Shown here: piece by piece, positions 1 to 18,128 of the stretch | Numbering within the stretch: position 1 is the stretch's first letter | How the letters are laid out: the number at the start of each line of letters is the position of its first letter | Assembly: GCF_017357865.1 (NCBI RefSeq) | Contig: NZ_CP060096.1 | Coordinates: 806,001-870,000 of the forward strand | DNA length: 64,000 nt | Source: Aceticella autotrophica | Lineage (GTDB): Bacteria; Bacillota; Thermoanaerobacteria; Thermoanaerobacterales; Thermoanaerobacteraceae | Direction: 5' to 3' | The notes under the pieces: model-generated | The model's database searches: none | What the model was told of the DNA's origin: nothing | What the model saw: the letters and a program-made list of their open reading frames with translations, nothing else | Translations under genes and position numbers: made by a program

Positions 1-785
1 GTCATTACTGCATCAATTCATATATTGCCAAAAGTGATCCAAATGATGTTTTTGTGTTTAGATTAGAGCCTGAGAGAATTATTGATATAGCTAAAAAAAC
101 AGGATGTCATAATATCGTATTTGGTGTTAATGAGGTAACAGTTTCTTTGCCGTCTGCCGTAGAAGTAGGAAAACTGGCGAAAAAAGAGGGTATACCTATG
201 GGATGTCTTACGAATGGATACATCACAGAAGAAGTAGTTGAGATTTTCAAGGGAATCTTTCAATTTATTAATGTCAGTTTAAAGTCATTCAGTTCAGGTT
301 TTTATAAGAGGTATGTCGGTATAGATGATTTGTCGCCTATATTGCGTAATATAAGAGAGCTATCAAAAAAATGTCATATAGAAATTACAACACCTATAGT
401 TTCAGGCATAAATGATAAAGAAATTCCGCTTATTGCCGAATTTATAAGCGGCATAAATCCTGAAATACCATGGCATGTATTTAGACTTTTGCCGGAATAC
501 AAGATGCAGAATTTACAATATCCAAATATCTATGAGGTCAGCAATGCCTTGCAGGAGGCAAGAAAGGTTTTACCTTATATATATTTCAGTAATTTTGCAG
601 GTTCTGATTGGGTAAGTACCTTTTGTCCGGAATGTGGCGGGAAGATAATAAAGAGAATCGCTTTGGGGGGATGTGGCGCAAAATTAACGGAATATGCTTT
701 AAATAATGGTAAATGTCCGGTATGCGGCAAGACAATACCCCTGTATGGGGAATATATAGAATGGAATTCGAGGGAGGTAAGATAA
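1..785 (+). CDS. Radical SAM protein, 5'-truncated by window edge
   Basis: The reading frame is open from base 3, so the gene begins upstream of the window. The first residues read HYC, and bases 1-2 (gt) could complete a Cys codon, giving the last part of a CxxxCxxC iron-sulfur motif as in activating-enzyme-like radical SAM proteins. The middle looks like a TIM-barrel radical SAM core, with a TNGY segment and a SGIND segment. The C-terminus carries a CPECGG and CPVCG pair about 30 residues apart, which looks like a zinc ribbon. It is separated by 1 bp from the next gene, so the two are almost certainly cotranscribed. The substrate is unknown. The internal GTG at 54 is not the real start. Confidence 0.75.
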   Translation, partial: HYCINSYIAKSDPNDVFVFRLEPERIIDIAKKTGCHNIVFGVNEVTVSLPSAVEVGKLAKKEGIPMGCLTNGYITEEVVEIFKGIFQFINVSLKSFSSGFYKRYVGIDDLSPILRNIRELSKKCHIEITTPIVSGINDKEIPLIAEFISGINPEIPWHVFRLLPEYKMQNLQYPNIYEVSNALQEARKVLPYIYFSNFAGSDWVSTFCPECGGKIIKRIALGGCGAKLTEYALNNGKCPVCGKTIPLYGEYIEWNSREVR

Positions 786-786
786 A

Positions 787-1941
787 ATGGCGATTGGGAT
801 TATTGATGTCAGGGAATGGCAAACGATGGTTGATTTAAAAACCGGTGATAAGATTGATATTGATTTAAAATCTATTGATAAAATAAAAAAAATCATTGCA
901 CAGAATTATTATCCCGGAGACTTTGAATTAGAAAGCATTGATTGGGTAAGTGATATGGCAATGAGGATAAATGAGGTATATGAGCCTGATTTTATGTTGT
1001 TAAGTTATGCACAGCCTTACTTTATCTCTCGATTCAAAAAGATTTTCAACTATGAAATGATAGGAATAATAAATTATCTTTTTAAAAGCGTTGAGAATTT
1101 TTTAAAAAATACTGATTTTGTTCCGGTAATAATTGGACTTGGTGATTTAGTGCCGTTAAGGGGTTTTATAGATTTATCAAATATTGACGGAATTGCTTTT
1201 TGCGGCGGAATGTCCTCTTGCTATGGTGGATTATTTGATGCAACGTCAAAAGACCTTGATTATTTAGCTGGTATTCCGGAGATAGAAAAAATAATAAGCA
1301 AAAAAAAGTTTATGGATGAATTTGGTGGAAGAGAAGATTTTATTAAAAGATTTCCGGATTATTTGCTTATAGCTAAAGAAGGATATACATTTAAGGCATG
1401 TGGAAGCTTAGCAAGGACAGTTTATAAAGTTCCTGCAAAAAATACGACGATACCATTATATACATCGTTAGATGGTATTGATTCTATTGTTGATGTTAAA
1501 AAAGTCATTGAAGAAAATCTGGATAATCGAAAAATTGCTCTTATTCTTTTAGAGGGGATAGGGACAAGGGATTTTAAATGGCAATATACCTTGTGCAAAA
1601 ACAGCATAAAATGGTATACGTATGAGCAGGATGCAAATCAATATCTCGCAATAACCACAGGCAAACATCTTCAATATAATGGTTATCCACCCGGTTATAA
1701 ATATTATATAGAGGACGATGAAAATAAGCCATATCCTTATGAAGGACCTTTTATGGAAATACCGGAAAATACCATCGGGCAGATGAATAAAATAAAAAGT
1801 GCTGCCCTTGGCAGCAGAAGCATTATAACGCATGTTGCAAGTGGAGCCGACATCAGTATTGAATGTTTATGCAGGATGCTCTATAATTATGGGACAATGG
1901 CGGTTATAAAAGATATAGTTTATAAGCAGGAAATCCTTTAA
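787..1941 (+). CDS. Conserved-looking protein of unknown function, 384 aa
   Basis: I do not recognise this family. The ATG at 787 follows an AGGGAGG site at 771-777 and lies 1 bp after the radical SAM gene. No signal peptide or membrane segment is evident, so it is probably cytoplasmic. Visible landmarks are an aliphatic segment VPVIIGLGDL followed by FCGGMSSCYGG, a KACGSLART segment, and a C-terminal HVASGADISIECLCRM stretch. The grouped Cys residues could bind a metal or a cluster. Its place between a radical SAM gene and a DUF4213/DUF364 gene, next to a Moco-riboswitch-controlled transporter, suggests a role in metal or cofactor handling, but that is inference only. Confidence 0.6.
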   Translation: MAIGIIDVREWQTMVDLKTGDKIDIDLKSIDKIKKIIAQNYYPGDFELESIDWVSDMAMRINEVYEPDFMLLSYAQPYFISRFKKIFNYEMIGIINYLFKSVENFLKNTDFVPVIIGLGDLVPLRGFIDLSNIDGIAFCGGMSSCYGGLFDATSKDLDYLAGIPEIEKIISKKKFMDEFGGREDFIKRFPDYLLIAKEGYTFKACGSLARTVYKVPAKNTTIPLYTSLDGIDSIVDVKKVIEENLDNRKIALILLEGIGTRDFKWQYTLCKNSIKWYTYEQDANQYLAITTGKHLQYNGYPPGYKYYIEDDENKPYPYEGPFMEIPENTIGQMNKIKSAALGSRSIITHVASGADISIECLCRMLYNYGTMAVIKDIVYKQEIL

Positions 1942-2056
1942 TTATTAAATAATTCATTTTTCTTTAAGGATATAAATATTTTTGAAAGAAAAGCTCAAAC
2001 ATAGATTATAGAAATAAAATATTTATAAAAATCTAAGATAAAGAGGTGTAAATTTA

Positions 2057-2812
2057 ATGATAATTGATAAATTAATTGATATTGCCAATGAAAGGTCAAA
2101 TGGGAGAAAGATTAAGGATATTCGAATAGGTGTAGGTTATACCTGTGTTATGTTGGACGATGGAAGTTCGGGTTTGGCATATACTTTCGTTAATGAACTC
2201 GGACCTTGCTGTGGACAGTTGGAAGAAGCGGGAAGCATGATTGGACGGGATTGCACTTCAGTAATTAGCTGGGGAAAGAAGGATAATATATTAAAATCTA
2301 CAGTTGGAGTGGCAGCAATAAATGCTGTAATTCACAGTGGCATTCAAGAATATGAAACGGGTAATATTATCAACGAGGTAAAAAATTTAAATTCTTATGA
2401 TACATTTGGTATGGTAGGTTATTTCCGACCTATAATAAATGTTGTAAAGCAGACAGGAGCAAAAACTTATGTATTTGAACGTTCAGGGAAATATGAAGGA
2501 ACTACGGTTCCTGATTGGGCAATTGAAATGTACCTGCCGCAATGTGATGTGGTTATAATTACAGGTACTGCAATAATAAATAAGACAATCGATCATATTT
2601 TGGAGATGTGTAAAAATGCAAGGGAGGTTTATATAGTCGGTCCGTCAACCACCATGTCTTATGAAGCATTTGAAGGATATAATGTTACGAAACTTGCCGG
2701 AAGTTTAGTTGTTGAGCCCAAAAAGGCTCTTGAGGTAGTCAGTCAAGGGGGAGGTACTATGATGTTGAAGGATGCCATAAAAAATATATCTGTAAAAGTA
2801 AAGGGGAAATAA
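2057..2812 (+). CDS. DUF4213/DUF364 protein, putative heavy-metal chelation family
   Basis: The 251-aa protein matches my recollection of the DUF4213 plus DUF364 architecture: an enolase-N-like N-terminal part with conserved ELGPCCGQLEEAGS, then a Rossmann-like C-terminal part with VGYFRPIINV, VVIITGTAIINKTIDHIL and VGPSTTMS segments. Family members are soluble and are described as putative heavy-metal chelators from structural work, with no settled reaction. The start at 2057 has a GAGGTG site at 2042-2047. A 115-bp gap separates it from the 384-aa gene. The molybdate-type transporter and its riboswitch begin immediately downstream, which supports a link to molybdenum or tungsten. Confidence 0.7.
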   Translation: MIIDKLIDIANERSNGRKIKDIRIGVGYTCVMLDDGSSGLAYTFVNELGPCCGQLEEAGSMIGRDCTSVISWGKKDNILKSTVGVAAINAVIHSGIQEYETGNIINEVKNLNSYDTFGMVGYFRPIINVVKQTGAKTYVFERSGKYEGTTVPDWAIEMYLPQCDVVIITGTAIINKTIDHILEMCKNAREVYIVGPSTTMSYEAFEGYNVTKLAGSLVVEPKKALEVVSQGGGTMMLKDAIKNISVKVKGK

Positions 2813-2835: not shown

Positions 2836-2862
2836 TTGACAAATATGATTAGTTGATATACT
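2836..2862 (+). promoter_or_regulatory. Promoter for riboswitch-modABC transcript
   Basis: TTGACA at 2836-2841 and TATACT at 2857-2862 are separated by 15 bp, slightly short of the usual 17. This places the start of transcription about 35 nt upstream of the Moco-type aptamer. Confidence 0.5.
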
Positions 2863-2904
2863 ATTATCAATAAGCTTAGAGAAAAATCAAAAATTGAAAA
2901 TATA

Positions 2905-3010
2905 AATCTCCGAGCCTTTATGTCTGTGGGGGATTATCCTATGAGATAAAGGCCGTCTTAGGGTATTAATGGAAACGTTAATGCCTCCCGTTTGAAAAGG
3001 AGAAGGATTT
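2905..3010 (+). promoter_or_regulatory. Moco-type riboswitch (molybdenum/tungsten cofactor RNA)
   Basis: Conserved blocks of the Moco RNA motif appear in order: CTCCGAGCC near 2908, AAGGCC near 2948, a GGAAAC loop near 2971, GCCTCCC near 2982 and GAAAAGGAGAAGG at the 3' end. In this class the RNA senses molybdenum cofactor, or tungsten cofactor in variants that lack one stem. I did not fold it well enough to decide between these. A terminator hairpin follows at 3046, so premature termination is the likely output. The gene controlled is the oxyanion transporter operon beginning at 3214. Confidence 0.85.
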
Positions 3011-3045
3011 TAGTGTTTGCACAACATTTGATATGATGTTTTTTG

Positions 3046-3069
3046 TGCCTTCTTCGGAAGGCATTTTTT
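3046..3069 (+). terminator. Intrinsic terminator, expression platform of the Moco-type riboswitch
   Basis: A perfect 7-bp stem, TGCCTTC / GAAGGCA, is closed by a TTCG tetraloop and followed by six T residues. The 5' arm CCTTCTTC can also pair with GGAGAAGG at about 2999-3006 at the end of the aptamer. This offers a plausible antiterminator switch. Confidence 0.8.
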
Positions 3070-3213: not shown

Positions 3214-4065
3214 ATGTTAAAATTCGACAAAGCAGCAGGGAAAAAGATGTTTAATGTTAAAAACCTTTTACTTATTTTTTTAGTGACTGCAATGATTGTA
3301 TTTGGCGGGTGTAGTTCGAAAACTGATAAAAATTCAACAAATACAGTTAAAAACAACAAACAGGAAACAACAGCTTCATTTAAAGGTCAAAAACTTAATC
3401 TTTATGTAGCAGCAGGGCTTAAAAAACCTATGGATGAGGTTATCAATATCTTTGAAAAAGAAACCGGTGCAAAGGTAGTACCAAGTTATGGGGCTTCCGG
3501 TGGACTTTACACACAAATCAAAGAGGGGCAGCCTTGCGACCTCTATTTTTCGGCAGACTGGCTTTATGTAGACAAGCTTAAGGCTGATGGGAAACTGGCT
3601 GAAGGGCAAAAATTCTTGCAAGACAATTTGGTGCTTGCTGTGTCACAAACAGGTAAAAATAAAGTTAAAAGTGTAACAGATTTGATAAAACCGGGGGTTG
3701 TAGTTGGTGTATGTGACTTACAAGCTCCTGTTGGTACTTATTCTGAAAAAGCTTTTAAGACAATGAATATATGGGACAAATTAGTATCATCAGGCAATAT
3801 TAAAGCCCGTCCTGCAACGGTAAATCAGCTTGCGGTTATGATTGGCAAAAATGAGCTTGATGCAGGTTTAATTTACAGCAGTGTAGCCAAAGCAAATAAT
3901 TTAGAATATGTTGAAGAAATACCTCAAAAATATACGGGTGAGATTATTTTCGGTTCAGCTATCATTAAAGGTGGTAATGAAAAACTTGCTAAAGAATTTA
4001 TGAAGATTGCTAATAATAACATTGATAAATTTGAAAAATACGGTTGGAAGGCTGTAAAAGAATGA
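3214..4065 (+). CDS. modA: ModA-type molybdate/tungstate-binding lipoprotein
   Basis: The 283-aa protein has a basic N-terminus, a hydrophobic signal segment and a lipobox-like FGGC at about residues 29-32, so it should be an extracytoplasmic lipoprotein after Lgt and Lsp processing. The mature part shows the ModA pattern: LYVAAGLKKPMDEV, PSYGASGGLYTQIKEG, DLYFSAD, LVLAVS, and a C-terminal YTGEIIFGSAI. ModA proteins deliver molybdate, and often tungstate, to an ABC permease. It is the first main gene of a three-gene operon behind a Moco-type riboswitch and overlaps modB by ATGA. The sequence does not show whether molybdate or tungstate is preferred. Confidence 0.88.
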   Translation: MLKFDKAAGKKMFNVKNLLLIFLVTAMIVFGGCSSKTDKNSTNTVKNNKQETTASFKGQKLNLYVAAGLKKPMDEVINIFEKETGAKVVPSYGASGGLYTQIKEGQPCDLYFSADWLYVDKLKADGKLAEGQKFLQDNLVLAVSQTGKNKVKSVTDLIKPGVVVGVCDLQAPVGTYSEKAFKTMNIWDKLVSSGNIKARPATVNQLAVMIGKNELDAGLIYSSVAKANNLEYVEEIPQKYTGEIIFGSAIIKGGNEKLAKEFMKIANNNIDKFEKYGWKAVKE

Positions 4066-4838
4066 GAAATAATATTATCAGTGTTTTATTTATACCATTG
4101 TTTTTTCTATTGGTAATTTATCCTATTGCCGCGTTATTAGGGCATGTTAATAGTATGGGTATTATTAAAACCTTTCACGATATACTATTTTGGCAAAGTG
4201 TAAAAAATACTATAGAGGCTGCATTTGCAGCCTCTGTATTAGGTCTCATAACGGCTTTGGGATTTGGCTATTACCATCTTTTTGACAGAAATTCATATTT
4301 ATACAAAATTGCTAATTTTATGAATGACTTACCGGTTGCTTTACCGCATACCGTAGCCGGACTTGCCCTGCTTTTAGCCTTTGGACGTAATGCCTTTGGC
4401 TTTGTTGGCAATACGGGATTGGCGTTTATGATGATTTCTGTTGTATTAGCCATGTTTTTTGTTTCATATCCTCTGGCAGCAAGGGCTATATCTGCTGGTG
4501 TAGATCAAATAGAACCTGAGATAATTGATGTAGCCCGTACGCTGGGAGATACTCCCAATAAAGCATACCTGCGGGTTGTGGTTCCTTCTTTGGGAGAGGC
4601 TATATTCTCAGGTCTTGCATTAACCTTTGCCCGCTCAGTAAGCGAATTTGCTGCCGTAATAATGTTTGGGGGAAACATCCCGGGTGTTACTCAAGTTTTA
4701 GCATCTTATGTCTTTACTAAGGTTGAAGAAGGCGAAATTAATATGGCAGTAACAGCAAGTGCATTTTGTATTTTATTATCTTTGACAATCGTTGGGCTAT
4801 TAAGTTTAATAAATGCGAGGAGAAACAAAAATGCTTAA
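4062..4838 (+). CDS. modB: ModB-type ABC transporter permease
   Basis: The start is the ATG at 4062, which overlaps the modA stop codon, rather than the TTG at 4044. The 258-aa protein has about six membrane segments and the cytoplasmic EAA-like loop of binding-protein-dependent permeases (EIIDVARTLGDTPNKAYLRV), followed by VPSLGEAIFSGLALTFARS. It should form a homodimeric channel for the oxyanion bound by the upstream lipoprotein, energised by the next gene. It overlaps the ATPase gene by 8 bp. Confidence 0.88.
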   Translation: MRNNIISVLFIPLFFLLVIYPIAALLGHVNSMGIIKTFHDILFWQSVKNTIEAAFAASVLGLITALGFGYYHLFDRNSYLYKIANFMNDLPVALPHTVAGLALLLAFGRNAFGFVGNTGLAFMMISVVLAMFFVSYPLAARAISAGVDQIEPEIIDVARTLGDTPNKAYLRVVVPSLGEAIFSGLALTFARSVSEFAAVIMFGGNIPGVTQVLASYVFTKVEEGEINMAVTASAFCILLSLTIVGLLSLINARRNKNA

Positions 4839-5499
4839 GATTAATAATATAAGTAAATCTTTTGAAAATCGTAAGGTTTTGAAAGATGTAACAATAGAGG
4901 TGAAATCTGAGACAAAGGTTATTATAGGATTAAATGGAAGCGGAAAATCTACATTGCTTAAAATTGTTGCTGGTATAATAAGAGCTGATGAAGGTAGGGT
5001 AATTATAGGAGAAAGAGATGTAACATTACTTCCGCCGGAGGATCGAAAAATCGGTTATGTTCCACAACATACAGCCCTTTTTAATCACTTAACGATAAAG
5101 GAAAATATTACTTATTCTTTTAAAAATAGACGGGGTTCTAAGGAAACAATGGAAAAAACGATTGATATGCTGGGCTTAAAAGAATATCTTAATTGCAAAC
5201 CTTACGAATTAAGCGGCGGATATAAGAGCAGGGTATCAATGGCAAGGGCTTTAGTATCCGCTCCTCAAGTCATGCTTTTAGATGAACCTCTGAGTGACAT
5301 TGATGCCGCAACGAAGGAAAAACTTTTGCCGGAATTTCATTTTGTATTTAAAAATATTGACATACCTGTGTTATATGTTACACATGATGTACATGAAGCA
5401 GAAGCGATAGGAGATACATTTGCTGTCATGATTGATGGAAAACTCATTGACATTGATTCAGCTTCAAGAGCCTTTGATTTTATTAAAAATAAGTTATAG
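4831..5499 (+). CDS. modC: ModC-type ABC transporter ATP-binding protein, short form
   Basis: The chosen ATG at 4831 has GAGGAG at 4816-4821, whereas the ATG at 4813 has no upstream site. The 222-aa protein carries Walker A GLNGSGKST, a Q-loop VPQHTALFNH, signature LSGGYKSR (Tyr instead of the common Gln), Walker B VMLLDEP and the H-loop YVTHD. It ends right after the nucleotide-binding domain, so the C-terminal TOBE/MOP oxyanion-sensing domain of classical ModC (about 350 aa) is absent. Feedback may therefore rest on the riboswitch alone. It is the last gene of the operon, with a terminator following at 5545. Confidence 0.85.
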   Translation: MLKINNISKSFENRKVLKDVTIEVKSETKVIIGLNGSGKSTLLKIVAGIIRADEGRVIIGERDVTLLPPEDRKIGYVPQHTALFNHLTIKENITYSFKNRRGSKETMEKTIDMLGLKEYLNCKPYELSGGYKSRVSMARALVSAPQVMLLDEPLSDIDAATKEKLLPEFHFVFKNIDIPVLYVTHDVHEAEAIGDTFAVMIDGKLIDIDSASRAFDFIKNKL

Positions 5500-11706: not shown

Positions 11707-11794
11707 TAATCCTTTGAGAATCCCACTATATACCTCCATTACCACCAATTTAATATAGACATACAGGTATAATACGTTTATAATGTGTAATTGA

Positions 11795-11905
11795 AATATG
11801 CCGAATCCCCAGAAAAAGGGGTACGGGGGAATTTTTATGGGGTGAATCCATTATTATGGTAGGGTGACCCTTTACCCAAACCCGTCAACTAACCTCGGAG
11901 GCAAA
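11795..11905 (+). promoter_or_regulatory. c-di-AMP riboswitch (ydaO/yuaA type)
   Basis: Conserved blocks of the class are present: GCCGAATCC, GGGGTACGGGGGAA, GGGGTGAATCC, TAGGGTGACC, and at the 3' end AACCCGTCAACTAACCTCGG. The class usually turns expression off at high c-di-AMP. A TATAAT at 11768-11773 lies just upstream. The riboswitch leads directly to the SleB-type hydrolase gene. No separate terminator hairpin with a T run was seen before the ATG, so control may act at ribosome access: the SD AGGGGG begins right after the aptamer. Confidence 0.9.
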
Positions 11906-11918
11906 AGGGGGAAAATTA

Positions 11919-17823: not shown

Positions 17824-17845
17824 TAGCACCAATCCTTTCTCTTTT

Positions 17846-17945
17846 AGCCTACGAGGTTAGTTGACGGGTTCGGTAAAGAGCAACCCTATCGTATAAAATA
17901 CGAATTCACCCCAAAATAAATCCCCCGCTTATTCAAATTCGGCAC
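17846..17945 (-). promoter_or_regulatory. c-di-AMP riboswitch (ydaO/yuaA type), minus strand
   Basis: Read on the - strand, the blocks GCCGAATTTG, GCGGGGGA, GGGGTGAATTC, AGGGTTGC and ACCCGTCAACTAACCTCGTAGGC match the class and closely resemble the + strand copy at 11795. It precedes the NlpC/P60 gene with only about 20 nt between aptamer and start codon. Confidence 0.9.
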
Positions 17946-18128
17946 ATAAATATTTTACAATAAAAAATTAATAAATGCAAATTATTTCACAACAAATTTT
18001 GATTAATAACATAACAGTATTAAAATACATGAACAGCATAAGAAAAGAGGTTTTATGATATAATGATAAAAATATGCAAATTAAATCCATAAATAATGTT
18101 GATAAAAATTTTTTGAGGAGGTTTTTTA

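Follow-up and report, generated by a model that had tools for sequence, protein, structure and literature searches.

The window, the whole stretch of DNA that was analysed, comprises 64,000 nucleotides of a complete 2.27 Mb genome (G000:C1:806001-870000). At its 5' end lie the three plus-strand genes described by an earlier note, and all of them were found at the given positions: the C-terminal part of a radical SAM (rSAM) protein (window 1..785, ORF 3-785), a 384-residue protein of no known family, termed P384 here (window 787..1941), and a 251-residue DUF4213-DUF364 protein (window 2057..2812). The rSAM stop codon ends at position 785 and P384 starts at 787, which confirms the 1-bp gap between them. 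The operon extends 5' past the window edge, and DNA was fetched to include this region (L004, numbered as window position + 12001). The full rSAM gene starts 213 bp before the window and encodes 332 residues (L004 11788-12786, G000:C1:805787-806785), of which the window covers the C-terminal 260. P384 and the DUF364 protein follow at L004 12788-13942 and 14058-14813. Ahead of the rSAM gene are the genes of a Fec-type importer: a FecB-like lipoprotein (SBP, L004 8941-10008), a FecCD/BtuC-like permease (L004 10042-10995) and an ATPase (L004 10931-11770). A Moco riboswitch aptamer (RF01055, L004 8668-8811) is located about 130 nt 5' of the first gene and is followed by a terminator-like hairpin (L004 8839-8858, consensus match only).

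The modABC genes are located downstream of the DUF364 gene on the same strand. They encode an oxyanion-binding lipoprotein (modA, window 3214..4065; TIGR01256 108 bits, cut-off 62.5), a permease (modB, 4062..4838) and an ATPase (modC, 4831..5499). A second RF01055 aptamer (2896..3018) precedes them. Because it has its own promoter-like site (TTGACA-17-TACTAT, 2836..2864) and a terminator-like hairpin 3' of the aptamer as expression platform (3045..3064), both plus-strand consensus matches only, this riboswitch is assigned to modABC. Both aptamers score above the RF01055 gathering threshold of 36 bits (61.2 bits ahead of the rSAM-P384 operon, 75.3 bits ahead of modABC). Judged from these sequence signals, rSAM-P384-DUF364 and modABC are two adjacent units under separate control, with the three genes in the upstream unit. 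The riboswitch and oxyanion importer reported directly downstream of the three genes are therefore real, but they form a unit of their own. Two c-di-AMP riboswitches (RF00379) are also present in the window, at 11789-11918 on the plus strand (93.8 bits) and at 17830-17954 on the minus strand (83.8 bits).

There are three RF01055 aptamers in the genome; the third heads a second operon at 1.70 Mb. P3 is aligned in the aptamer of the rSAM-P384 operon and absent from the Moco/Tuco aptamers of modABC and of the 1.70-Mb operon. The inspected aptamers of the module in other genomes also have no P3 (linker read by eye). Regulski et al. 2008 (PMC2408646) link Moco to aptamers that contain P3 and Tuco to those that lack it. 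Because P3 is found only in the aptamer of this operon among those compared, W may be the metal supplied by the module in most hosts and Mo the one in this host, as far as this correlation goes. In E. coli the Moco aptamer represses when Moco is plentiful (PMC2408646), and by analogy Moco or Tuco would repress the module, a direction in keeping with acquisition or synthesis.

The second operon has the order modA-modB-DUF364-modC-FecCD-ATPase-FecB-methyltransferase-rSAM594 and is convergent with moeA. Its last gene, rSAM594 (L038 13240-15024, G000:C1 about 1.709 Mb), encodes an AmmeMemoRadiSam-like rSAM protein whose C-terminal domain is FecB-like. It is related to the module rSAM (31% identity). 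The FecB-like domain matches the IsdE model (7.7e-9) and is 29% identical to the module SBP. Since it is fused to a protein that starts with the rSAM Cys motif, the domain is presumably cytosolic. The fusion suggests contact between the enzyme and whatever ligand the importer carries.

A formate-dehydrogenase-like molybdopterin oxidoreductase gene (G000:C1:1712999-1716187, L085 816-4871) lies beside moeA and the second operon. It is interrupted by the gene of a 531-residue transposase-like protein (L085 2504-4099), and its first part has an in-frame TGA, possibly a selenocysteine codon. Molybdopterin oxidoreductases of family PF00384, one with an in-frame TGA, are present in this genome. The tungsten oxidoreductase/aldehyde:ferredoxin oxidoreductase family (PF01314) is absent from it, so there is no such link here. 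All six genomes of the same family in the sample described below (G001-G005, G007) have neither a MoaA nor an RF01055 match. Thus, Moco metabolism may have been gained by transfer in the present organism.

In a sample of 398 Bacillota genomes, P384 is present in 14, this one counted, and its relatives are 28-53% identical. A single-sequence peptide-pattern scan of genome contigs yielded no relatives; they were found by whole-genome search and an alignment-based scan. The latter also detected P384 in MAGs named Dethiobacter alkaliphilus, Syntrophomonas and Thermacetogenium and in two labelled Chloroflexi. Among the 37 genomes of the same class that were compared, no other has P384. Accordingly, the module is patchy and was probably moved horizontally. 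MoaA is present in 14/14 genomes with P384 compared with 267/398 overall (Fisher p 0.003) and RF01055 in 14/14 compared with 217/398 (Fisher p 0.0002); both tests ignore shared ancestry.

The gene neighborhood was compared at 22 distinct P384 loci. An rSAM gene is part of the cluster at all 21 readable loci (the contig of L041 is cut) and adjoins P384 at 20 of them; P384 has the divergent orientation in L037. Fec-type importer genes are found at 20/22 loci. They are missing from L048, a short contig, and from L026, where none occur within 19.8 kb and the riboswitch is directly followed by rSAM-P384. The Moco riboswitch heads the cluster at 14 of the 17 loci with visible upstream sequence. L031 and L053 have no RF01055 at gathering score, and L043 is possibly cut. 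Counted by genome, an RF01055 on the right strand precedes the first gene by at most 500 nt in 11/12 cases. The chance expectation, based on 2 to 17 RF01055 per genome, is 0.010 of 12, an estimate that ignores shared ancestry. modABC is found in the same run twice, as part of a shared operon in L033 and in the cluster of L043. The distance matrices of rSAM and P384 correlate with r = 0.89, a value reached by 0/2000 permutations. Thus, rSAM and P384 are an obligate pair that is accompanied by a Fec/BtuCD-type importer at nearly all loci. DUF364 occurs at only 4/22 loci; it was rejected as a core member and is accessory. Of the three-gene set in the earlier note, two genes occur together and with Mo/W genes in other genomes, whereas DUF364 often does not accompany them. 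In some MAGs (L025/L040, L041 and L042) the module appears to have undergone an internal duplication, with a copy of P384 on either side of a FecB and a FecCD gene.

The rSAM protein matches PF04055 (3.8e-15). Twelve cysteines are invariant in 20 homologues (C3, C6, C10, C20, C68, C72, C75, C280, C283, C296, C310 and C313). C68, C72 and C75 form the CxxxCxxC motif (20/20), and the last five include the zinc-ribbon-like pairs already noticed at the C-terminus. The best NCBIfam model is TIGR04337 (AmmeMemoRadiSam) with 173 bits, below its curated cut-off of 220. By its pattern of N- and C-terminal Cys groups, the protein is AmmeMemoRadiSam-like in architecture and not a member by that cut-off. 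Weak matches to glycyl-radical-activase and tungsten-oxidoreductase-maturase models are found in NCBIfam. No model of haem-utilisation rSAM proteins (HutW/ChuW) is among the NCBIfam matches at 1e-4.

The closest characterised relative of the SBP with a solved structure is MolA (HI1472, 2.4e-24). Two structures without assigned ligand score higher (4ovk, 4hn9). MolBC-A is a low-affinity molybdate transporter, and MolA binds tungstate (PMC4031551). The operon could thus be nothing but a MolABC-like molybdate/tungstate importer to which rSAM and P384 are loosely connected, for instance as activators of a Mo/W enzyme. The similarity to MolA and the weak activase and maturase matches of rSAM agree with this. 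The obligate pairing of rSAM with P384, the near-constant linkage to the importer over many families and the FecB-like domain fused to rSAM594 do not, and no Mo/W enzyme gene is constant in the cluster. A plain importer is therefore quite improbable.

The assignment of the DUF4213-DUF364 protein is clear (1.1e-21 and 9.8e-40). Both Pfam gathering scores are exceeded (136 bits with a cut-off of 23 and 77.3 bits with a cut-off of 23.5), and the protein matches 3npg (1.1e-18) and 3l5o (9e-13). All three DUF364 genes of the genome are in clusters with FecB-like genes. The third (L039 7586-9614) adjoins a FecB-like binding-protein gene and has no Moco riboswitch. The usual cargo of Fec-type importers are metal chelates. 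Thus, rSAM, P384 and DUF364, together with the methyltransferase of the second locus, might make a small Mo/W-binding metallophore that the importer retrieves in its loaded form. Repression by the cofactor would fit. From the transport genes for Mo, W, V and Fe in the genomic surroundings, the paper on 3l5o proposed synthesis of a pterin, flavin or siderophore-like chelator (PMC2954201). However, the pair has only two obligate proteins, and there are neither precursor-building enzymes nor a consistent exporter next to it; a MATE-like gene adjoins it in L026 alone. Synthesis of a metallophore is therefore rather unlikely.

P384 of the window has no match in Pfam or NCBIfam, and the 14 members have no consistent Pfam match. 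The earlier view that it belongs to no recognised family holds, and no known family of unrelated function was found in these databases. A Pfam scan with the rotated sequence gave no match, and nothing credible was obtained with the native or rotated profile against PDB sequences. AlphaFold2 models were calculated for the window protein (pLDDT 83.7, pTM 0.88) and a 44%-identical homologue (pLDDT 88.6, pTM 0.91). For both models the top Foldseek match is phosphonoacetate hydrolase (1ei6; E 2e-4 and 3.5e-5, probability 1.00), followed by ENPP phosphodiesterases. About 60-70% of the chain is aligned, with TM-scores of only 0.34-0.40.

Profile-profile comparison offers a reason for the low TM-scores in a permuted segment order. 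Residues 16-262 of P384 match positions 130-452 of the PF01663 alignment (E 2.3e-7), with a score of 62.1 compared with 15.7 +/- 2.4 for 60 column shuffles. The C-terminal part (240-384) alone matches positions 1-152 of PF01663 with a score of 22.1 (shuffle maximum 18.4). The segments do not follow the canonical order of the alkaline phosphatase superfamily; with residue 246 as the first position of a rotated P384 alignment, the match becomes collinear over 341 columns. P384 apparently has a circularly permuted alkaline-phosphatase-superfamily fold, as far as the models indicate, with strong homology in the N-terminal and moderate homology in the C-terminal part.

The metal sites for which a structure prediction had been suggested are largely absent from this predicted fold. 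Among the metal ligands and nucleophile of the superfamily, only the acid of the first strand (β1) is kept (E256; E or D in 23/23). The position of the Thr nucleophile is occupied by G, S or D, mostly G or S. The Asp-His pair of M2 corresponds to L118-G119 and the His of M1 to Y78, and the other M1 ligands are unaligned. With the nucleophile and almost every catalytic metal ligand lost, P384 probably does not work as a standard two-metal hydrolase. A conserved stretch (R344, T348, H349, D355, E359 and C360) is a candidate new site. The grouped cysteines, which had been taken as a hint at a metal site, are not conserved among 20 homologues (C139, C145 and C205 in 1/20), and a Cys-rich metal site was rejected for this reason. 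C360 is found in 19/20.

These data bear on two further explanations. In one, the pair modifies or salvages a pterin cofactor, for example by trimming or altering imported Moco, Tuco or a pterin precursor. rSAM chemistry serves Moco synthesis (MoaA), the operon is controlled by the riboswitch of the cofactor itself, and the fold of P384 is akin to phosphodiesterases and phosphonoacetate hydrolase. P384 is, however, devoid of nearly all catalytic residues of that fold, and MoaA is kept in all 14 genomes, so de novo cofactor synthesis persists; salvage is likewise unlikely. The other is storage of Mo or W, an alternative named in the earlier note. P384 could in principle bind oxyanions, but its cysteines are not conserved and it matches no known family, storage proteins included. 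Storage also needs the opposite of repression at plentiful cofactor, and the module sits behind an aptamer class for which such repression is known in E. coli (PMC2408646). Storage is therefore very improbable. The broader proposal of an undescribed Mo/W system fares better, since the module has its own riboswitch, conserved synteny and MoaA and RF01055 in 14/14 genomes.

rSAM and P384 are always found together, usually beside the importer and a Moco/Tuco riboswitch, and so probably belong to an undescribed route of Mo/W acquisition in anaerobes. The preferred explanation, which stands at about even chances, is a cofactor-repressed acquisition module, in which a Mo/W species would enter through the importer and be processed in the cytosol by rSAM and P384. 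At low levels of Moco or Tuco, the leader riboswitch would allow transcription to continue past the terminator, and FecB-FecCD-ATPase-rSAM-P384(-DUF364) would be made. The BtuCD-type importer would take up the Mo/W species as the oxyanion or in a complex. rSAM and P384 would then act on it as one cytosolic unit, probably to release the metal or convert it for use in cofactor synthesis. In P384, a phosphatase-like fold may have been adapted to hold the oxyanion or ligand, with no phosphatase chemistry. This explanation agrees with the riboswitch and terminator, the synteny, the co-occurrence with MoaA and RF01055, the correlated distances of the pair, the match to MolA and the FecB-like domain of rSAM594. 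The locus without importer (L026), the two without riboswitch (L031, L053), the almost complete loss of ancestral catalytic residues in P384 and the SBP's closest PDB matches without assigned ligand count against it. Furthermore, it is conceivable that the importer simply pumps oxyanions, as MolABC does, which would leave the enzymes unexplained. A more specific version is tentative and rather doubtful. According to it, the Mo or W imported by anaerobes is bound in an organic or sulfur-rich complex, from which rSAM chemistry releases the metal, all under feedback by the finished cofactor. The obligate partner that holds the oxyanion or ligand would be a phosphatase fold, circularly permuted and emptied of its catalytic function.

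Accounts of Mo/W uptake usually describe no more than the import of an oxyanion. The module connects a cofactor riboswitch with an uncharacterised rSAM protein and with a protein family that neither Pfam nor NCBIfam contains, and it is conserved well enough for direct knockout and metal-uptake tests. DUF364, whose role was merely proposed in the 2010 structure paper, gains a regulated pathway in which it can be tested. A permuted member of the alkaline phosphatase superfamily without metal sites, which P384 appears to be from its predicted model, would be unusual in itself. No description of an rSAM-P384 pair or of such a permuted fold was found in the literature, with few subscription papers within reach.

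Several known systems resemble parts of the module. It shares with MolBC-A (HI1470-HI1472), a BtuCD-type molybdate/tungstate importer, the type II ABC architecture, the related SBP and a Mo/W regulon. This likeness is one of sequence similarity only, and the passages of PMC4031551 that were consulted mention no rSAM or P384 partner of MolBC-A. The DUF364 proteins 3l5o and 3npg have the DUF364 domain in common with the module, and Mo/W/V transport genes are the context of their family (PMC2954201); their enzymatic role is a proposal only, and DUF364 is accessory in the P384 module. HutW/ChuW, the rSAM proteins of anaerobic haem utilisation, provide an analogy only, in that an rSAM enzyme frees metal from an imported ligand (PMC10035031). 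No membership of the module rSAM in their family was seen by sequence, and both metal and regulator differ. P384 resembles PhnA (1ei6) and the PF01663/ENPP phosphodiesterases in its predicted fold but differs in the apparently permuted segment order and in the loss of metal ligands and nucleophile except E256. The AmmeMemoRadiSam rSAM proteins match the module rSAM over nearly its whole length, whereas the module protein stays below their curated cut-off and has P384 as its partner.
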